Position numbers and translations under genes: made by a program | Shown: positions 11,118 to 60,245 of the stretch, piece after piece | How the letters are laid out: each line of letters begins with the position of its first letter | How positions within the stretch are numbered: the first letter of the stretch is position 1 | Assembly: GCA_002727315.1 (NCBI GenBank) | Contig: PBWR01000004.1 | Coordinates: 7,160-71,159 of the forward strand | From: Alphaproteobacteria bacterium | GTDB lineage: Bacteria; Pseudomonadota; Alphaproteobacteria; UBA6615 | Length of the DNA: 64,000 nt | Reading direction: 5' to 3' | Notes under the pieces: model-generated | The model's database searches: none | The model's input: the letters and a program-made list of their open reading frames with translations, nothing else | What the model was told of the DNA's origin: nothing

Positions 11118-12662
11118 GTGGCAGACAGCCCGTACTATCTGACGACGCCGATCTACTATGTGAACGATCGGCCCCATATCGGCCACGCCTACACGACGCT
11201 GGCCTGCGATGTGCTGGCCCGGTTCCAGCGCCTCGACGGGCATGATGTGCATTTTGTGACCGGGACGGACGAACACGGCCAGAAGGTCGAGAAATCCGCG
11301 CAGGCCGCGGGCGTGGACCCGCAGGCGTTTACCGATGAGGTGAGCCAGAACTTCCGCCGTCTGGCGGGCGAGATGAACTATTCGAATGACGACTTCATCC
11401 GGACCACCGAAGACCGGCATATCCGCGCATCTCTGGCCATCTGGAAGGCGATCAAGGACAACGGGCACATCTATCTGGGGTCCTATGCCGGCTGGTATGC
11501 GGTCCGTGACGAAGCGTTCTATGCCGAATCCGAGCTCGAGGAGAACGAGGACGGCCAGAAGGTCGCGCCGACGGGCGCGGAAGTGGAGTGGGTGGAGGAG
11601 CCCAGCTACTTTTTCAATCTGTCGGAATGGCAGCAGCCGCTGCTCGACTTCTACGCTGCGAATCCCGACTTCATCGGCCCGGAAACCCGTCGGAACGAGG
11701 TGGTCAGCTTCGTCGAGGGCGGTCTCAAGGACCTGTCGATCAGCCGCACCAGTTTCAAATGGGGCGTGCCGGTTCCCGACGACCCAGATCACATCATGTA
11801 TGTGTGGCTGGATGCGCTCACCAACTATCTGACGGCCGTGGGCTATCCGGACGAAAAAAATCCCGACTATTCAAAGTACTGGCCGGCCGACCTTCATATG
11901 GTGGGGAAGGATATCGTGCGCTTCCACGCGGTCTACTGGCCGGCCTTCCTGATGGCGGCCGGACTGCCGCTGCCCAAACGGGTCTATGCCCATGGCTGGC
12001 TGCTCAACCGCGGGGAGAAAATGTCCAAATCCCTGGGCAATGTGGTGTTGCCGGAGGATCTGGTATCGCAGTACGGGCTCGATCCGGTGCGTTACTACCT
12101 GCTGCGCGAGGTTCCGTTCGGGAATGACGGTTATATCAGCCACGAAACCATGGTTTCGCGGATCAACGGCGATCTGGCCAACGATCTGGGCAACCTGGCC
12201 CAGCGCTCCCTATCCATGATCGCGAAGAACTGCGATGGCGCGGTGCCGGAGCCCGGCACGCTCGCCGATGACGACGAAAAGCTGCTCGCGGCCGCGCGGG
12301 ACGTGCTGGACCAGGTACGCAGCGAATTCACCCGGCAGGCCTTCCACCGGGGCATGGAGGCCATCTGGCTGGTCGTCGGCGACGCCAACCGGTATGTCGA
12401 CGCCCAGGCCCCGTGGACGCTGCGGAAAACCGACCCGGTGCGCATGGAGACCGTGCTGTACACCCTGGCCGAGACCATCCGGCATCTGGCCATCCTCGTA
12501 CAGCCCCTGATGCCCCAGTCGGCGGGAGCGATGCTCGATCAGCTCGCCGTGCCGGGGGACGCCCGCAGTTTTGCCCATCTGGGTTCCGGTCACGCGCTCA
12601 CTGCGGGACAGACGCTGCCCAAGCCCAGCCCCGTGTTTCCGCGCTACGTGGATGAAGGCTAA
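11118..12662 (+). CDS. metG: Methionyl-tRNA synthetase
   Basis: A 514-residue class I aminoacyl-tRNA synthetase charging tRNA-Met. The GTG start puts [19 protein letters not shown] at the N-terminus, with the HIGH signature at residues 21-24 and the KMSKS loop at 301-305 ([10 protein letters not shown]). The anticodon-binding helical bundle follows ([20 protein letters not shown], then QAPWTL). It is the short alphaproteobacterial form without a C-terminal EMAP/Arc1p-like domain. It ends with TAA, four bases before the tatD start. Confidence 0.95.
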
Positions 12663-12666
12663 CCCG

Positions 12667-13455
12667 ATGCTGGTCGACAGCCACTGCCATCTGGATTTCC
12701 CGGATTTCGCTGACGAGGTCGACGATATCGTCGCGCGCGCCGGAGAGGCCCGGGTCGGCACGATGGTGTCGATCTCCACCCATTTGAGCCGTTTCGACGG
12801 TGTCCGGGCCATGGCCGAGCGGTTCGACAATGTCTGGTGTAGTGTTGGCGTGCATCCCCATCATGCGAGCGAGGAGGGCCAGGACAGCCCCGACCGCCTG
12901 ATCGAGATGGCCGCACACCCCCGTGTCGTGGGGATCGGCGAGTCCGGTCTCGACTATTACTACGATCGCAGCCCCCGCGACCGCCAGCAGGCAAGCTTCC
13001 GGGCCCATATCGCCGCTGCGCGGGAGACCGGGCTGCCCTTGATCGTGCATGCGCGCGAAGCGGACGAGGACACGGCCGACATTCTGCGAGACGAAATGGG
13101 CAAGGGCGCCTATACCGGGGTCATGCACTGCTTTTCCAGCGGCCGCGGCCTGGCCGAGGCGGCGCTGGAACTGGGCCTGTAAATCAGCTTTTCCGGCATT
13201 CTGACCTTCAAGAACGCGGAAGAGTTGCGCGATATCGCCCGCGACGTGCCCGCCGACCGGCTGCTCGTCGAGTCCGACGCGCCGTTCCTTGCCCCGATCC
13301 CCAATCGCGGCAAGCGCAACGAGCCCGCCTACTTAGCCCACACGGCCGAGGTGCTGGCCGATGTAAGGGGCATGAAATTCAAGGCGTTGGCGGAACATAC
13401 ATGCGACAATTTCTTTCGCGTGTTTTCCCGCGCCGAAAGGCCCGCCGGGTCGTGA
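12667..13455 (+). pseudogene. tatD: tatD family deoxyribonuclease split by one in-frame TAA
   Basis: The frame is full length for TatD (262 codons before the final stop) and collinear with the family. It shows MLVDSHCHLDFPDF (HxH metal site), GIGESGLDYYYD, LPLIVHAREAD, GVMHCFSSG, then TAA at 13180-13182, then ISFSGILTFKNAEELRDIA and the catalytic-Asp motif RLLVESDAPFLAPIPNRGKRNEPAY. TatD homologues read GFYISFSG at the break, so the TAA replaces a Tyr. Without readthrough the product stops at 171 residues and lacks the last metal ligand. Its final TGA overlaps the GTG start of the next gene, so spacing is still that of an intact operon. The break could be a sequencing error. Confidence 0.88.
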
Positions 13456-15180: not shown

Positions 15181-15487
15181 TCACCCATGCAGGACGACGG
15201 CCCAAATCACGATCTCCGAGACACCCTCGTGGATATCCTCATAGGCCTCTCCACCATCCATCAAGGTCAGCAGACCGGTCAGCGTCGCGAGGATCACCGA
15301 CACGGCGATCGTCAGGACCAGCAATTTGCTGATAGCCGGATGCGTCAGTCCTTTTAACCAGCTGATGCCATCGAACACGGGATAAAACTTATTGAGGCCG
15401 AGTTGGCGCGGATTGAACACCGCCCAACCCAGGCGGAGTACTACAATCACCCCGACGGCATAACCCAGCCAGTCGTGAACGCCGCCG
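15181..15487 (-). pseudogene. Cytochrome b561-like (di-haem cytochrome b) fragment
   Basis: The minus frame reads VHDWLGYAVGVIVVLRLGWAVFNPRQ (haem His and first helix, split here for length), then LKGLTHPAISKLL, a second hydrophobic helix, then EDIHEGVSEIVIWAVVLH and a stop. This is the middle of a B/b6-type membrane cytochrome domain, with the His of HEG and of LH normally coordinating haem. Both ends are missing: a stop lies just upstream of VHDW in frame, and translation ends right at the C-terminal His where the last helix should continue. It abuts a TadG-like fragment on the other strand. Confidence 0.72.
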
Positions 15488-15896
15488 AACGAGCTGCCGG
15501 TCGACTATGACACCCCGCTGATGGACAAGGTGGCGATCATGCTCACCGACGGCGTCAATCAGTGTTACGACTGGCCGACCGGCCTGCCCAACAACCCCGA
15601 TGCCGATTACACGCGGCCTATGGTCGGGTCAGCGAGGGACGCCTGGGCACCACCAGCGTCGGCGCGGCAACGACTGAAATCAACAACTGGATGATGACCG
15701 TCTGCAATGCGATGAAAGCCCAGGGAGTTATCATTTTCGGGATCACCTTCAGACTCAACAACCAGACGACGCAGAATCTCTACCGGGATTGCGCCACCTC
15801 GCCGGCGCACTATTTCAACTCGCCGTCGAACAGGAACTGCGGGACGTCTTCCACGAAATCGGCAACGAACTGACCAACCTGCGCCTGGCGCAATAA
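15488..15896 (+). pseudogene. TadG-like pilus assembly protein, C-terminal VWA-domain remnant with two frameshifts
   Basis: Three successive frames join into one TadG C-terminus. The first has DKVAIMLTDGVNQCYDW (metal-site strand). After a shift near 15612 it reads YGRVSEGRLGTTSVGAAT, MTVCNAMKAQGVIIFGITF and CATSPAHYFNSPS. After a second shift near 15826 it reads ELRDVFHEIGNELTNLRLAQ and a TAA. TadE/TadG-like proteins with a VWA domain use exactly this order (TDG, C-x2-MK, ITF, CA-x-P-x-HYF, ELxxxF, LRL). The N-terminal transmembrane part is absent, cut off at the junction near 15480-15490 with the cytochrome fragment. Confidence 0.75.
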
Positions 15897-21804: not shown

Positions 21805-23205
21805 CTACTCCGCGCTACGAACGGCCGGTCCTTTTACTCCAAGAGATTTCAGTTTGCGATGCAAAGCCGAACGCTCCATCCCTACAAAGGTCGCCGTTTT
21901 CGAAATATTGCCAGCGAACCGGGTGACCTGTGCATCGAGATACTGGCGCTCGAACTCCTCGCGCGCATCGCGCAAGGTCAGCGTCAAAAACTCGATGTTC
22001 GACGCGCTTTGCAGGACGCGGGGCGACTTTTCGACGATTTCCGGCGGCAACATGTCCGCACGAATGGGCTCGTTCGGATCGTTCGATGCCATGATCATCA
22101 GCCATTCGATAACATTGCGAAGTTGCCGCACATTGCCGGGCCAGTCGTGGGTCTGCAACGCCGTCATGGCATCCGGACCGATACGCCGGGGCTGCATCCC
22201 GCCGAGATCGGAGGCCCGGCGCATGAAATGTTCGGCCAGTTTGGGAATGTCCTCGCGCCGCTCGGTCAGATTGGGCACTTCGATGGGCACCACGTTCAGG
22301 CGATAGAACAGATCCTCACGGAACTTGCCGACCTCGATTTCTTCCTGCAGGTCACGGCTCGTCGTCGCCATAACGCGAACGTCCACCTTGATCCGCTGGC
22401 TGCCGCCCACCCGTTCGAATGTCTGGTCCTGGAGCACACGCACGATCTTGCTCTGGGTCTCGACAGGCATATCGCCCACCTCGTCGAGCAACAGCGTTCC
22501 GGTATGGGCCTGCTCGAACAAGCCGATCTTCCGGCCCTCTTCATTGTCTTCACGGCCGGCCTCGACACCGAACAGCTCGATCTCCATGCGTTCCGGTGCC
22601 ATGGATGCGCAGTTCACCACCACGAAGGGTTGCTCGGCGCGCCGTGACAGGGCGTGCAGCTTGCGCGCCACCACTTCCTTGCCGGCCCCGGCCGGCCCCG
22701 AGATCAAAATCCGACTCCCCGTGGGCGCCACCTTCTCGATGCCACCGCGCAGTTGCACAATGGGCGCCGCGTCGCCGACCAGCTCTGTCTAGGCACCGGC
22801 GCGCAGACGCAGTTCCCGGTTTTCCCGGCGCAGCCGCGCCGCCTCGATCGCGCGGGCAACGATGGTGATCAACCGGTCTGTTTTGAAGGGCTTCTCGATA
22901 TAGTCATATGCGCCGACCTTGATCGCCTGGACCGCCGTTTCGACCGATCCGTGACCACTGATCATCACGACCGGCACGCTGGGATGTTCCCGGCGGATCT
23001 GATGCAACAATTCCATCCCATCGAAACGACTGTCCTCGAGCCAAATATCCAGGATCACCAGACCGGGACGACGCAGGGCGATCTCATCGATCGCCTGCTC
23101 GGCATTCGCCGCCTCGCGAGTCTCGTAGCCCTCATCCTGAAGGACCCCGGCGATCAAAAGACGGATATCGTCTTCATCATCGACTATGAGAATGTCTTCG
23201 GCCAT
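21805..23205 (-). pseudogene. ntrX: Nitrogen-regulation response regulator NtrX, split by one in-frame TAG
   Basis: The frame is full length for NtrX (about 466 codons). Residues 1-120 are a receiver with phospho-acceptor Asp in LVILDIWL and the KPF motif. At codon 139 (22789-22791) there is a TAG, and the same frame continues TELVGDAAPIVQLRGGIEKV into an AAA+ domain. That domain has GPAGAGKE Walker A, LLLDEVGDMP Walker B, no GAFTGA loop as usual for NtrX, and a C-terminal Fis-type helix-turn-helix (NISKTATFVGMERSALHRKL). A GTG at 22756-22758 is a possible restart but has no ribosome site. Either the gene is freshly broken, the base is an error, or the regulator is made as two pieces. Confidence 0.85.
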
Positions 23206-57217: not shown

Positions 57218-57952
57218 ATGTTGACGCGAAAACAGCACCAGCTTCTGACCTTCATCAACGAACGGCTCAACGCGACCGGTGTCGCGCCGTCCTTCGACGA
57301 GATGAAGGACGCATTGGGCCTGAAATCCAAGTCTGGCATCCACCGCCTGATCACTGGGCTGGAGGAACGCGGTTTCATCCGCCGCCTCGCCCATCGGGCC
57401 CGCGCGCTCGAGGTGCTTCGCCTGCCCGACGAGACGGGCGTCGGCAACCAGCAGTCCGGCTCCGAACCCTTCGCACCGCAGGTCATCGAGGGCGGCCGCA
57501 ACCCGGACGCCTCACCGATCATCGCACCGTCGGAAATGCCCGGTCCCGACAGCGGGTCGTCCGGCGGCAGCGAAATCGATGTGCCCCTGCTCGGCAAGAT
57601 CGCGGCCGGCACGCCCATCGAGGCGCTGCGCGACACGACCCAGCACATCGGCGTGCCGCCATCCATGCTCGGCCGGGGCAATCATTATTGCCTTGAGGTC
57701 GCGGGTGATTCGATGGTCGATGCCGGCATCCTGGACGGCGATACGGTCGTCATCCGGCGCACCAACACCGCCGATAACGGCTCGATTGTCGTGGCCCTGG
57801 TCGAAGGCGAGGAAGTGACACTCAAGCGACTACGCCGGCGGAACAATTCCGTCGCGCTGGAAGCCGCCAATCCGGCCTATGAAACCCGCATCTTCGGCCC
57901 CGACCAGGTGGCCGTACAGGGCGAGCTCGTCGGGCTGATCCGGCAGTACTAA
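57218..57952 (+). CDS. lexA: SOS repressor LexA
   Basis: A 244-residue LexA. The ATG at 57218 gives [29 protein letters not shown], the winged helix-turn-helix N-terminus with [19 protein letters not shown]. The self-cleavage Ala-Gly bond is in [10 protein letters not shown], the catalytic Ser in [13 protein letters not shown], and the Lys in [11 protein letters not shown]. An acidic/Ser-rich linker about 40 residues longer than in E. coli LexA is usual in alphaproteobacteria. It ends with TAA. Confidence 0.96.
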
Positions 57953-57976: not shown

Positions 57977-58648
57977 CTAGACCGGCCGCATCCACGGCCG
58001 CAGCGGATGCGGTATGCGTGCCTGCCAGACCCGCGGTTCCCCGCCGGCTAGCCAAACCGCGTGGGCACCGTCGCACCAGAGATCGAACCGTCCGATCCGG
58101 ATTTCCTGTTGCCCGCAACTTGGCGGGATCGGCACCTGCGCGATCATAATCTGGGCCACGCGGCAATCCTCCTCGAAGGCGCGCGCATCGGAGACTACGG
58201 CCACCACCCGCCCGCCGGCAAGCCCCAGACATCCTAGCGGATCGCACAGCATCGTGTCGGCGCCACCCGTCGCCGCGAAAAAGGCGACAAACCCGTCCAC
58301 CCCCATCCGCCGTTGCCACAGATCGCGGACGAAGGGTGCGGCGCGCGGTTCGGATATATGGACCGCGCCGCCGCCGGTGCGCACGGCGACGAAGCCAAGC
58401 ACGACCATGATGGCAAGGACCGAGAGCAGAAATGGCAACGGAAGGCCCCGTACGACCAGGAATATGGCAAGGAGCCCGGTCAGCAACGCAGGTCCGGCCA
58501 GATGCGGCGGCTCCTGAGGCAATGAAAAGTAGATTCTGATACCGAGACCGAAGGCCACGGGCAGCCACAGCGGCCCACGCGCACGCTCTGCATCGAAGCG
58601 CCCGCAAAGAGGCCTGAACAGGCCAATATCGGTGATTGAAGGGTCCAT
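57977..58648 (-). pseudogene. comEC: ComEC/Rec2 remnant: N- and C-termini joined in frame, central domains missing
   Basis: A 223-residue open frame from ATG 58648. The first 85 residues (AERARGPLWLPVAFGLGIRIYFSLP, then two hydrophobic helices) match the start of alphaproteobacterial ComEC. The rest (FVRDLWQRRMGVDGF, CDPLGCLGLAGGRVVAVVSD, FEEDCRVAQIMIAQVPIP, RIGRFDLWCDGAHAVWL) matches its extreme C-terminus. The competence helices and MBL domain, some 450 residues, are absent, joined near residue 85. The slot between lexA and gltX is where comEC normally lies. It cannot form a DNA channel. A small unrelated protein with such ends is the less likely alternative. Confidence 0.75.
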
Positions 58649-58838: not shown

Positions 58839-60245
58839 ATGTCCGTCGTCACCCGTTTTGCCCCCTCTCCCACCGGCTTCCTACATATCGGCGGCGCCCG
58901 GACCGCGCTGTTCAATTGGCTGTTCGCCCGCCACCACGAGGGTTCCTTCACGCTGCGGATCGAGGACACGGACCGGAAACGCTCGACCGACGAGGCGATC
59001 GCAGCGATTTTCCACGGGCTTTCCTGGCTCGGGCTGGACCATGACGGCAATGCGGTGTTCCAGTCGAACAACGCCGCACGCCATGCAGAAGTCGCCGAAC
59101 AGCTGATTGTCGAGGGCAAGGCCTATCGGTGCTACTGCACGCCCGAAGAACTGACGGAAATGCGGGAAAACGCCAGAAATTCGGGCGGCTCAACGCGAAT
59201 CTACGACGGCCGTTGGCGCGATCGGGACCCGGCCGAGGCGCCGGACGGCATCGCGCCCGTGGTGCGCATCAAGATGCCGCTGGACGGTGAGACGACGATC
59301 TCAGACCTGGTCCAGGGCGATGTCACCCGCGCCAACGACACCCTGGATGATTTCATTATCCTGCGGTCCGACGGCACCCCCACCTACATGTTGGCCGTCG
59401 TCATCGACGATCACGATATGGGCGTCACCCACGCGATCCGCGGCGACGACCACCTGAACAACGCGTTCCGCCAGTACCACCTGTTCGAGGCGTGCGGCTG
59501 GGATGTCCCGCATTTCGCCCATATCCCGCTGATCCACGGCGCCGACGGCGCCAAACTCTCGAAACGCCACGGTGCACTGGGGGTGGAGCACTATGAAGAG
59601 CTCGGAATCTTGCCCGAAGCCATGCGCAACTACCTGCTGCGCCTTGGCTGGTCCCATGGAGACGACGAAATCATCCCAACAGAGCAGGCGATTGCCTGGT
59701 TCGAGCTGGATTCCGTCGGGCGCTCCCCGGCCCGATTCGATATGGACAAGCTGCTGAACCTGAACGCCCACTACCTCAAGGAAACCGATCCGGAGGAACT
59801 GGCTGCGCAGATCGTGGCAATCGCCGCCGACACGCCCGGCACAACAGTTTCGCCGGCCGCGAAAGCGCGCCTTTCGGCCGGATTGGGCGGGCTGACGAAA
59901 CGTGCAAAGACGATCAACGAACTCATTGATTCTTCGGAATTATATCTCCGAGATGCCCCGTTGGCCGTAAACGACAAGGCCGCAGCGATTCTGGGCGATC
60001 CGGAGGCCCGTCAGACCTTGGGTGCGCTTGCCGAAGAGCTTGGTAAGATTACATCCTGGACCGAGGCGGAACTCGACCAGATTGCGCGAAACTTCGCGGA
60101 ATCCAAGGGTTTGAAGCTGGGGCAAGTGGCGCAACCGTTGCGCGCCGCCCTGACCGGCAGCAACGTTTCGCCGGGCATTTTCGAGGTAATGGCCGTGCTC
60201 GGCCGGGATGAAACCCTCACCCGCCTCGAAATTGCTGTGAATTGA
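58839..60245 (+). CDS. gltX: Glutamyl-tRNA synthetase
   Basis: A 468-residue class I synthetase. ATG 58839 yields SVVTRFAPSPTGFLHIGGART with the HIGH-type motif; the 21 codons upstream in frame do not resemble the family. The KMSKS-type loop is KLSKRHGALG, and RGDDHLNNAFRQ and VVIDDHDMGVTHAIRG are conserved. It charges tRNA-Glu (and, if discriminating poorly, tRNA-Gln). It is followed after 137 bases by gltA. Confidence 0.95.
   Translation: MSVVTRFAPSPTGFLHIGGARTALFNWLFARHHEGSFTLRIEDTDRKRSTDEAIAAIFHGLSWLGLDHDGNAVFQSNNAARHAEVAEQLIVEGKAYRCYCTPEELTEMRENARNSGGSTRIYDGRWRDRDPAEAPDGIAPVVRIKMPLDGETTISDLVQGDVTRANDTLDDFIILRSDGTPTYMLAVVIDDHDMGVTHAIRGDDHLNNAFRQYHLFEACGWDVPHFAHIPLIHGADGAKLSKRHGALGVEHYEELGILPEAMRNYLLRLGWSHGDDEIIPTEQAIAWFELDSVGRSPARFDMDKLLNLNAHYLKETDPEELAAQIVAIAADTPGTTVSPAAKARLSAGLGGLTKRAKTINELIDSSELYLRDAPLAVNDKAAAILGDPEARQTLGALAEELGKITSWTEAELDQIARNFAESKGLKLGQVAQPLRAALTGSNVSPGIFEVMAVLGRDETLTRLEIAVN

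Follow-up and report, generated by a model that had tools for sequence, protein, structure and literature searches.

The window analysed here, a stretch of 64,000 nucleotides, contains on its minus strand an open reading frame of 223 codons (57977..58648), which starts with an ATG at 58648, ends with a TAG at 57979-57977 and carries AGGGAG, a plausible ribosome-binding site, 5' of the start codon. The coordinates and the length of 223 residues given in an earlier note on this DNA proved exact. The frame lies between two intact genes on the plus strand, lexA (57218..57952) and gltX (58839..60245), which were identified with Pfam and are kept in relatives. The slot between these two genes is conserved and is occupied in relatives by a minus-strand comEC, so that the 223-residue frame sits in the native comEC locus. 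A Pfam search with the fragment gave no match, including to PF03772 (Competence) and PF13567 (DUF4131).

Alignment of both ends of the fragment to the ComEC of relatives identifies it as a comEC remnant with an in-frame internal deletion. The family to which the window's genome (G000) belongs was represented by 24 genomes, and an order-wide search added none beyond it. In 12 of the relatives, the two parts of the fragment match both ends of one ComEC frame of 708-782 residues, with residues ~9-91 aligning to the N-terminal end and residues ~83-222 to the C-terminal end. This two-ended match to one long ComEC, at the native locus, bears out the in-frame central deletion that had been proposed, and the alignment puts the joint between residues 84 and 85 (window positions 58397/58396), close to the suggested residue 85. 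A central stretch estimated at about 450 residues is indeed gone, the count being 474-478 codons, absent in frame, when compared with the six closest intact relatives. For a deletion, such an in-frame outcome has a one-in-three chance.

The kept N-terminal part (residues 1-84; 58397..58648, minus strand), which aligns to the ComEC N-terminus, comprises membrane helices predicted from a model, plus a few residues from the start of the DUF4131 region. In the intact ComEC of a relative from the same genus (G006), Pfam places DUF4131, the OB domain, at residues 66-218 and Competence at residues 264-546. The deletion spans residues ~104 to ~578 in this numbering, so that the OB domain is mostly lost and the Competence channel entirely. 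At the joint (58379..58396, minus strand), where the six relatives were compared at both ends, the sequence GGCTTCGTCGCCGTGCGC is over a few bases like both borders of the missing stretch, which in the relatives read G-F-x-A-A-Q on the left and G/N-L-I-A-V-R on the right. As judged from the relatives' sequences, a deletion between such short matching stretches is plausible.

The fragment could instead come from a distinct family of short membrane proteins with a mere resemblance to the two ends of ComEC, in which case homologues with a full length of about 220 residues should be found in other genomes. However, no fusion of this size between the N- and C-terminal ends of ComEC was found in any of 80 alphaproteobacterial gltX neighbourhoods, of which 61 have a ComEC frame of at least 600 residues; in the remaining neighbourhoods the contig ends, the frame as scanned is interrupted or falls short of this length, or ComEC is absent from the vicinity. 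The matches in other genomes belong to long or visibly broken ComECs or run off a contig end, and the fragment itself sits in the comEC slot. No support was found for a separate family, which we regard as highly improbable.

With regard to the kept C-terminal part (residues 85-223; 57980..58396, minus strand), alignment, modelling and structure matches point to a degenerate cap resembling a metallo-beta-lactamase (MBL) with four conserved cysteines. These cysteines (C135, C140, C162 and C178) are among the positions that are near-invariant over 28 ComECs and are kept in the fragment. The AlphaFold2 model of the fragment has a mean pLDDT of 77.2, higher in the cap, and that of the C-terminal domain of an intact relative a mean pLDDT of 90.5. 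In VIA-align 2, both models match metallo-beta-lactamase folds, with nearly all of the top rows being MBL. The beta-lactamase-like domain of the Moorella ComEC, 9ic4, ranks first for the fragment (Z 7.7, 126 aligned, rmsd 3.3) and second, after PNGM-1 (Z 9.1), for the domain of the intact relative (Z 8.6, 132 aligned, rmsd 3.4). Foldseek alone gave no significant structure match for either model. Since a Z near 8 is middling and the Foldseek result was not significant, an MBL fold of the cap is considered probable rather than proven. The Pfam Lactamase_B family was not detected in the ComEC of the intact relatives, and the HxHxD metal-binding motif is absent from the C-terminal parts of the intact homologues (0/28) and from the fragment.

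As the kept part is probably a degenerate MBL-like cap, the MBL part would not be what the deletion removed. The loss of the channel and the MBL domain described in the earlier note therefore holds for the channel, together with most of the OB domain, and has to be revised for the MBL-like cap, which is the part that is kept. More generally, intact alphaproteobacterial ComECs without Pfam Lactamase_B seem to bear a degenerate MBL-like cap that has four conserved cysteines and no metal site. If this reading holds, fewer ComECs lack an MBL domain than has been stated, and the cap must serve a role other than that of a nuclease.

The soluble domains of ComEC are both extracellular (PMC8579336). 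By linking the helices that precede the OB domain to the cap, the joint would therefore preserve the membrane topology. This opens the way to a functional mini-protein, in which the membrane helices would tether the MBL-like cap in the periplasm for a new role such as DNA or partner binding. The preserved topology, the confidently modelled cap, the open frame with its start site and the near-invariant residues kept, including the four cysteines, would all fit such a protein. Conversely, the cap is left without the OB and channel domains alongside which it works, the partner genes are damaged, as described below, and no similar fusion was found in the family or in the 80 gltX neighbourhoods. 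Openness of the frame and retention of residues are, moreover, expected of a young deletion. We consider a functional fusion very unlikely.

The evolutionary rates give a mixed picture. Giving G000 its own omega in a codon model made no difference compared with one omega throughout (LRT 2.8). An omega of 1 was rejected for the G000 branch as a whole (LRT 25.7) under a saturated dS, a result that counts against decay, as do the open frame, the ATG with its plausible ribosome-binding site and the near-invariant positions kept. However, because dS is saturated and most of the G000 branch predates the deletion, the codon model says little on the time after the deletion. The protein rates tell more. 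For the fragment, the branch leading to G000 is 7.1 times as long as the gltX branch of this genome, in comparison to ~3.3 for all other branches together; relative to gltX, the values are 4.1 versus 2.3 for the C-terminal part of the fragment and 2.86 versus 1.52 for dprA, which is frameshifted in this genome. The fragment and the frameshifted dprA are thus both accelerated about twofold against gltX, and raised rates shared with a broken gene argue against a functional fusion. Similar rate ratios are found for some intact genes in the relatives G014 and G012, so the acceleration is not specific.

Among the sites that are invariant in the six relatives, G000 has kept 20/23 and 41/46 in the fragment and 202/222 in dprA, a retention of ~87-91% for both, versus 267/274 (97%) in gltX and 96/101 (95%) in lexA. 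In a simulation without selection, which counts stops only, the probability that the frame stayed stop-free was 0.42, 0.15 and 0.05 for a residue change of 10%, 20% and 30%, respectively. Since a neutral frame remains open in about 40% of cases at 10% change, the open frame is no evidence of function. Of the two explanations offered earlier for the open frame, a recent deletion fits this evidence, and a protein that is still useful has no positive support.

The rest of the transformation pathway is also damaged in the window's genome, a draft of 27 contigs that is 87% complete. A second comEC was searched for with PF03772 and was not found in this 87%-complete assembly. PF03772 occurs once in each of 14 relatives and the same-genus relatives that have it carry exactly one, which makes a second copy in the missing 13% of the genome unlikely. 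In Rhodobacter, ComEC, ComF and ComM import the DNA and DprA integrates it with RecA (PMC10883770). In G000, the loss of one base near residue 100 splits dprA, and conserved sites of this gene are altered, such as G to D in GLARGID. The comF frame is interrupted by an in-frame TAG, and its 3' part, which would encode the PRPP-binding motif, is missing. For comM (TIGR00368) the genome gave background hits only. As these genes have failed besides comEC, natural transformation and any ComEC-dependent uptake have very likely been lost. The earlier note had drawn the same consequence for the case that no other comEC copy exists, and had named a second comEC, comF and comM as the genes to look for.

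A draft metagenome could also mislead, had its assembly joined or collapsed comEC and had sequence errors produced the damage in comF and dprA. The genome is indeed incomplete, in 27 contigs, and the fault in dprA is a single base. Yet three genes are damaged in three different ways, whole segments are missing from comEC and comF, the flanking lexA and gltX are intact, and the same pathway has been lost in relatives that were assembled separately. An assembly artefact thus appears to be slightly less likely still than a functional fusion.

Comparison of the lexA-gltX slot across the family reveals several stages of decay. comEC is intact at this slot in 12 genomes. In G018 it is frameshifted, with the matches switching frame between ComEC residues 222 and 235, and dprA and comF are still open. 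In G002 it is riddled with stops, with pieces such as LIERERWVLWLPV and SAAQWRTAQVVAAVLVD readable in different frames. Only traces are left in G011, and nothing recognisable of comEC remains in G001 and G021-G023, in which lexA and gltX are spaced by ~170-355 bases. dprA was not found in G001, G002, G011 and G021-G023. In a gltX tree, the losses fall in separate places, namely G000, G001 with G002 (a grouping with 39% support), G011, which stands beside the intact G010, the clade of G021-G023, and G018. This distribution suggests five separate losses of comEC, or four if the frameshift in G018 is a sequence error.

The estimated genome size, calculated as bases divided by completeness, is 2.96-4.62 Mb with an intact comEC (n=12) and 2.03-2.90 Mb where a locus that can be seen has comEC broken or absent (n=8), a difference with a Mann-Whitney p of 0.0002 that is not corrected for kinship. 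Four genomes (G009, G012, G013 and G019) stand outside these counts on account of contig ends or a missing locus. Two of them, G013 and G019, have small genomes with a comEC locus out of view, and carry a dprA with an in-frame TAG and a damaged comF.

Reception of gene transfer agents (GTAs) likewise depends on comEC, comF and dprA, and these genes co-evolve with GTA genes (PMC10883770), so loss of a GTA was considered as the cause of the loss of comEC. The GTA TIM-barrel family PF13547 is found in none of the 24 genomes, with or without comEC, so GTA loss does not explain the pattern.

Other genes in the window are broken as well. A gene for a TatD-type DNase (12646-13446, plus strand) has an in-frame TAA at 13180-13182, with both halves matching PF01026, and a gene for an NtrX-like response regulator (21808-23151, minus strand) has an in-frame TAG at 22791-22789, between the receiver and sigma-54 domains. 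Remnants of a TadE/G-like pilus protein with a VWA domain lie in three frames at 15380-15893 (plus strand), and a remnant of cytochrome b561 at 15184-15480 (minus strand); these remnants adjoin stretches that are present in relatives and missing here, a further sign of erosion. Several apparent stops in window genes turned out to precede the start codon or to belong to shadow frames. Reassignment of a stop codon was rejected for the in-frame stops, given that neither the stop codon nor the residue it replaces is constant and that most genes are free of such stops. The other broken genes in the window were counted in favour of decay.

Taken together, the frame is very probably a comEC remnant in a lineage whose natural transformation was lost recently, in the course of genome reduction, and what is left of the gene is most likely ordinary decay, not a new protein. 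One deletion of ~1.42 kb, which may have arisen through recombination or slippage at short stretches that match between its two ends, took the larger part of the OB domain together with the entire Competence channel and kept the frame by chance. The remnant cannot yield a protein that conducts DNA. With comF and dprA broken and comM not found, selection on the comEC locus would be gone, and the frame would still be open because the deletion is young.

As a single gene, the remnant is a case of ordinary decay; with its relatives, it provides a clear snapshot of natural transformation being dismantled. What is new, modestly, is a deletion scar caught in frame along with a family-wide series of joint failures of the pathway. 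Within the 24 genomes of this small alphaproteobacterial family, failure tends to strike comEC, dprA, comF and comM jointly, in some four or five separate lineages and always in smaller genomes, which makes the family a natural series in which the order of decay of the machinery could be studied.

In comparison to ComEC itself, the DNA-uptake channel of natural transformation with its DUF4131 (PF13567) and Competence (PF03772) domains, the remnant shares the locus, both ends and the near-invariant residues of these ends, whereas it lacks the Competence domain and most of the OB domain and cannot form a channel. Its cap resembles the beta-lactamase-like domain of ComEC in 9ic4 (PMC12455585) in its probable fold, as does the domain of the intact relative; unlike the 9ic4 domain, the cap is about half the size, lacks HxHxD and has four conserved cysteines. 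Loss of ComEC has been reported in genome-reduced endosymbionts and intracellular bacteria (PMC6299819), and here too the loss accompanies small genomes, with the difference that several stages are seen in one family and the copy in the window is an in-frame scar. In Piscirickettsia salmonis, comEC has been truncated by transposons and the other transformation genes are intact (PMC12955456). The present case is similar in that comEC is broken in a lineage that once had it, but here the cause is a deletion instead of transposons, and the partner genes fail too.
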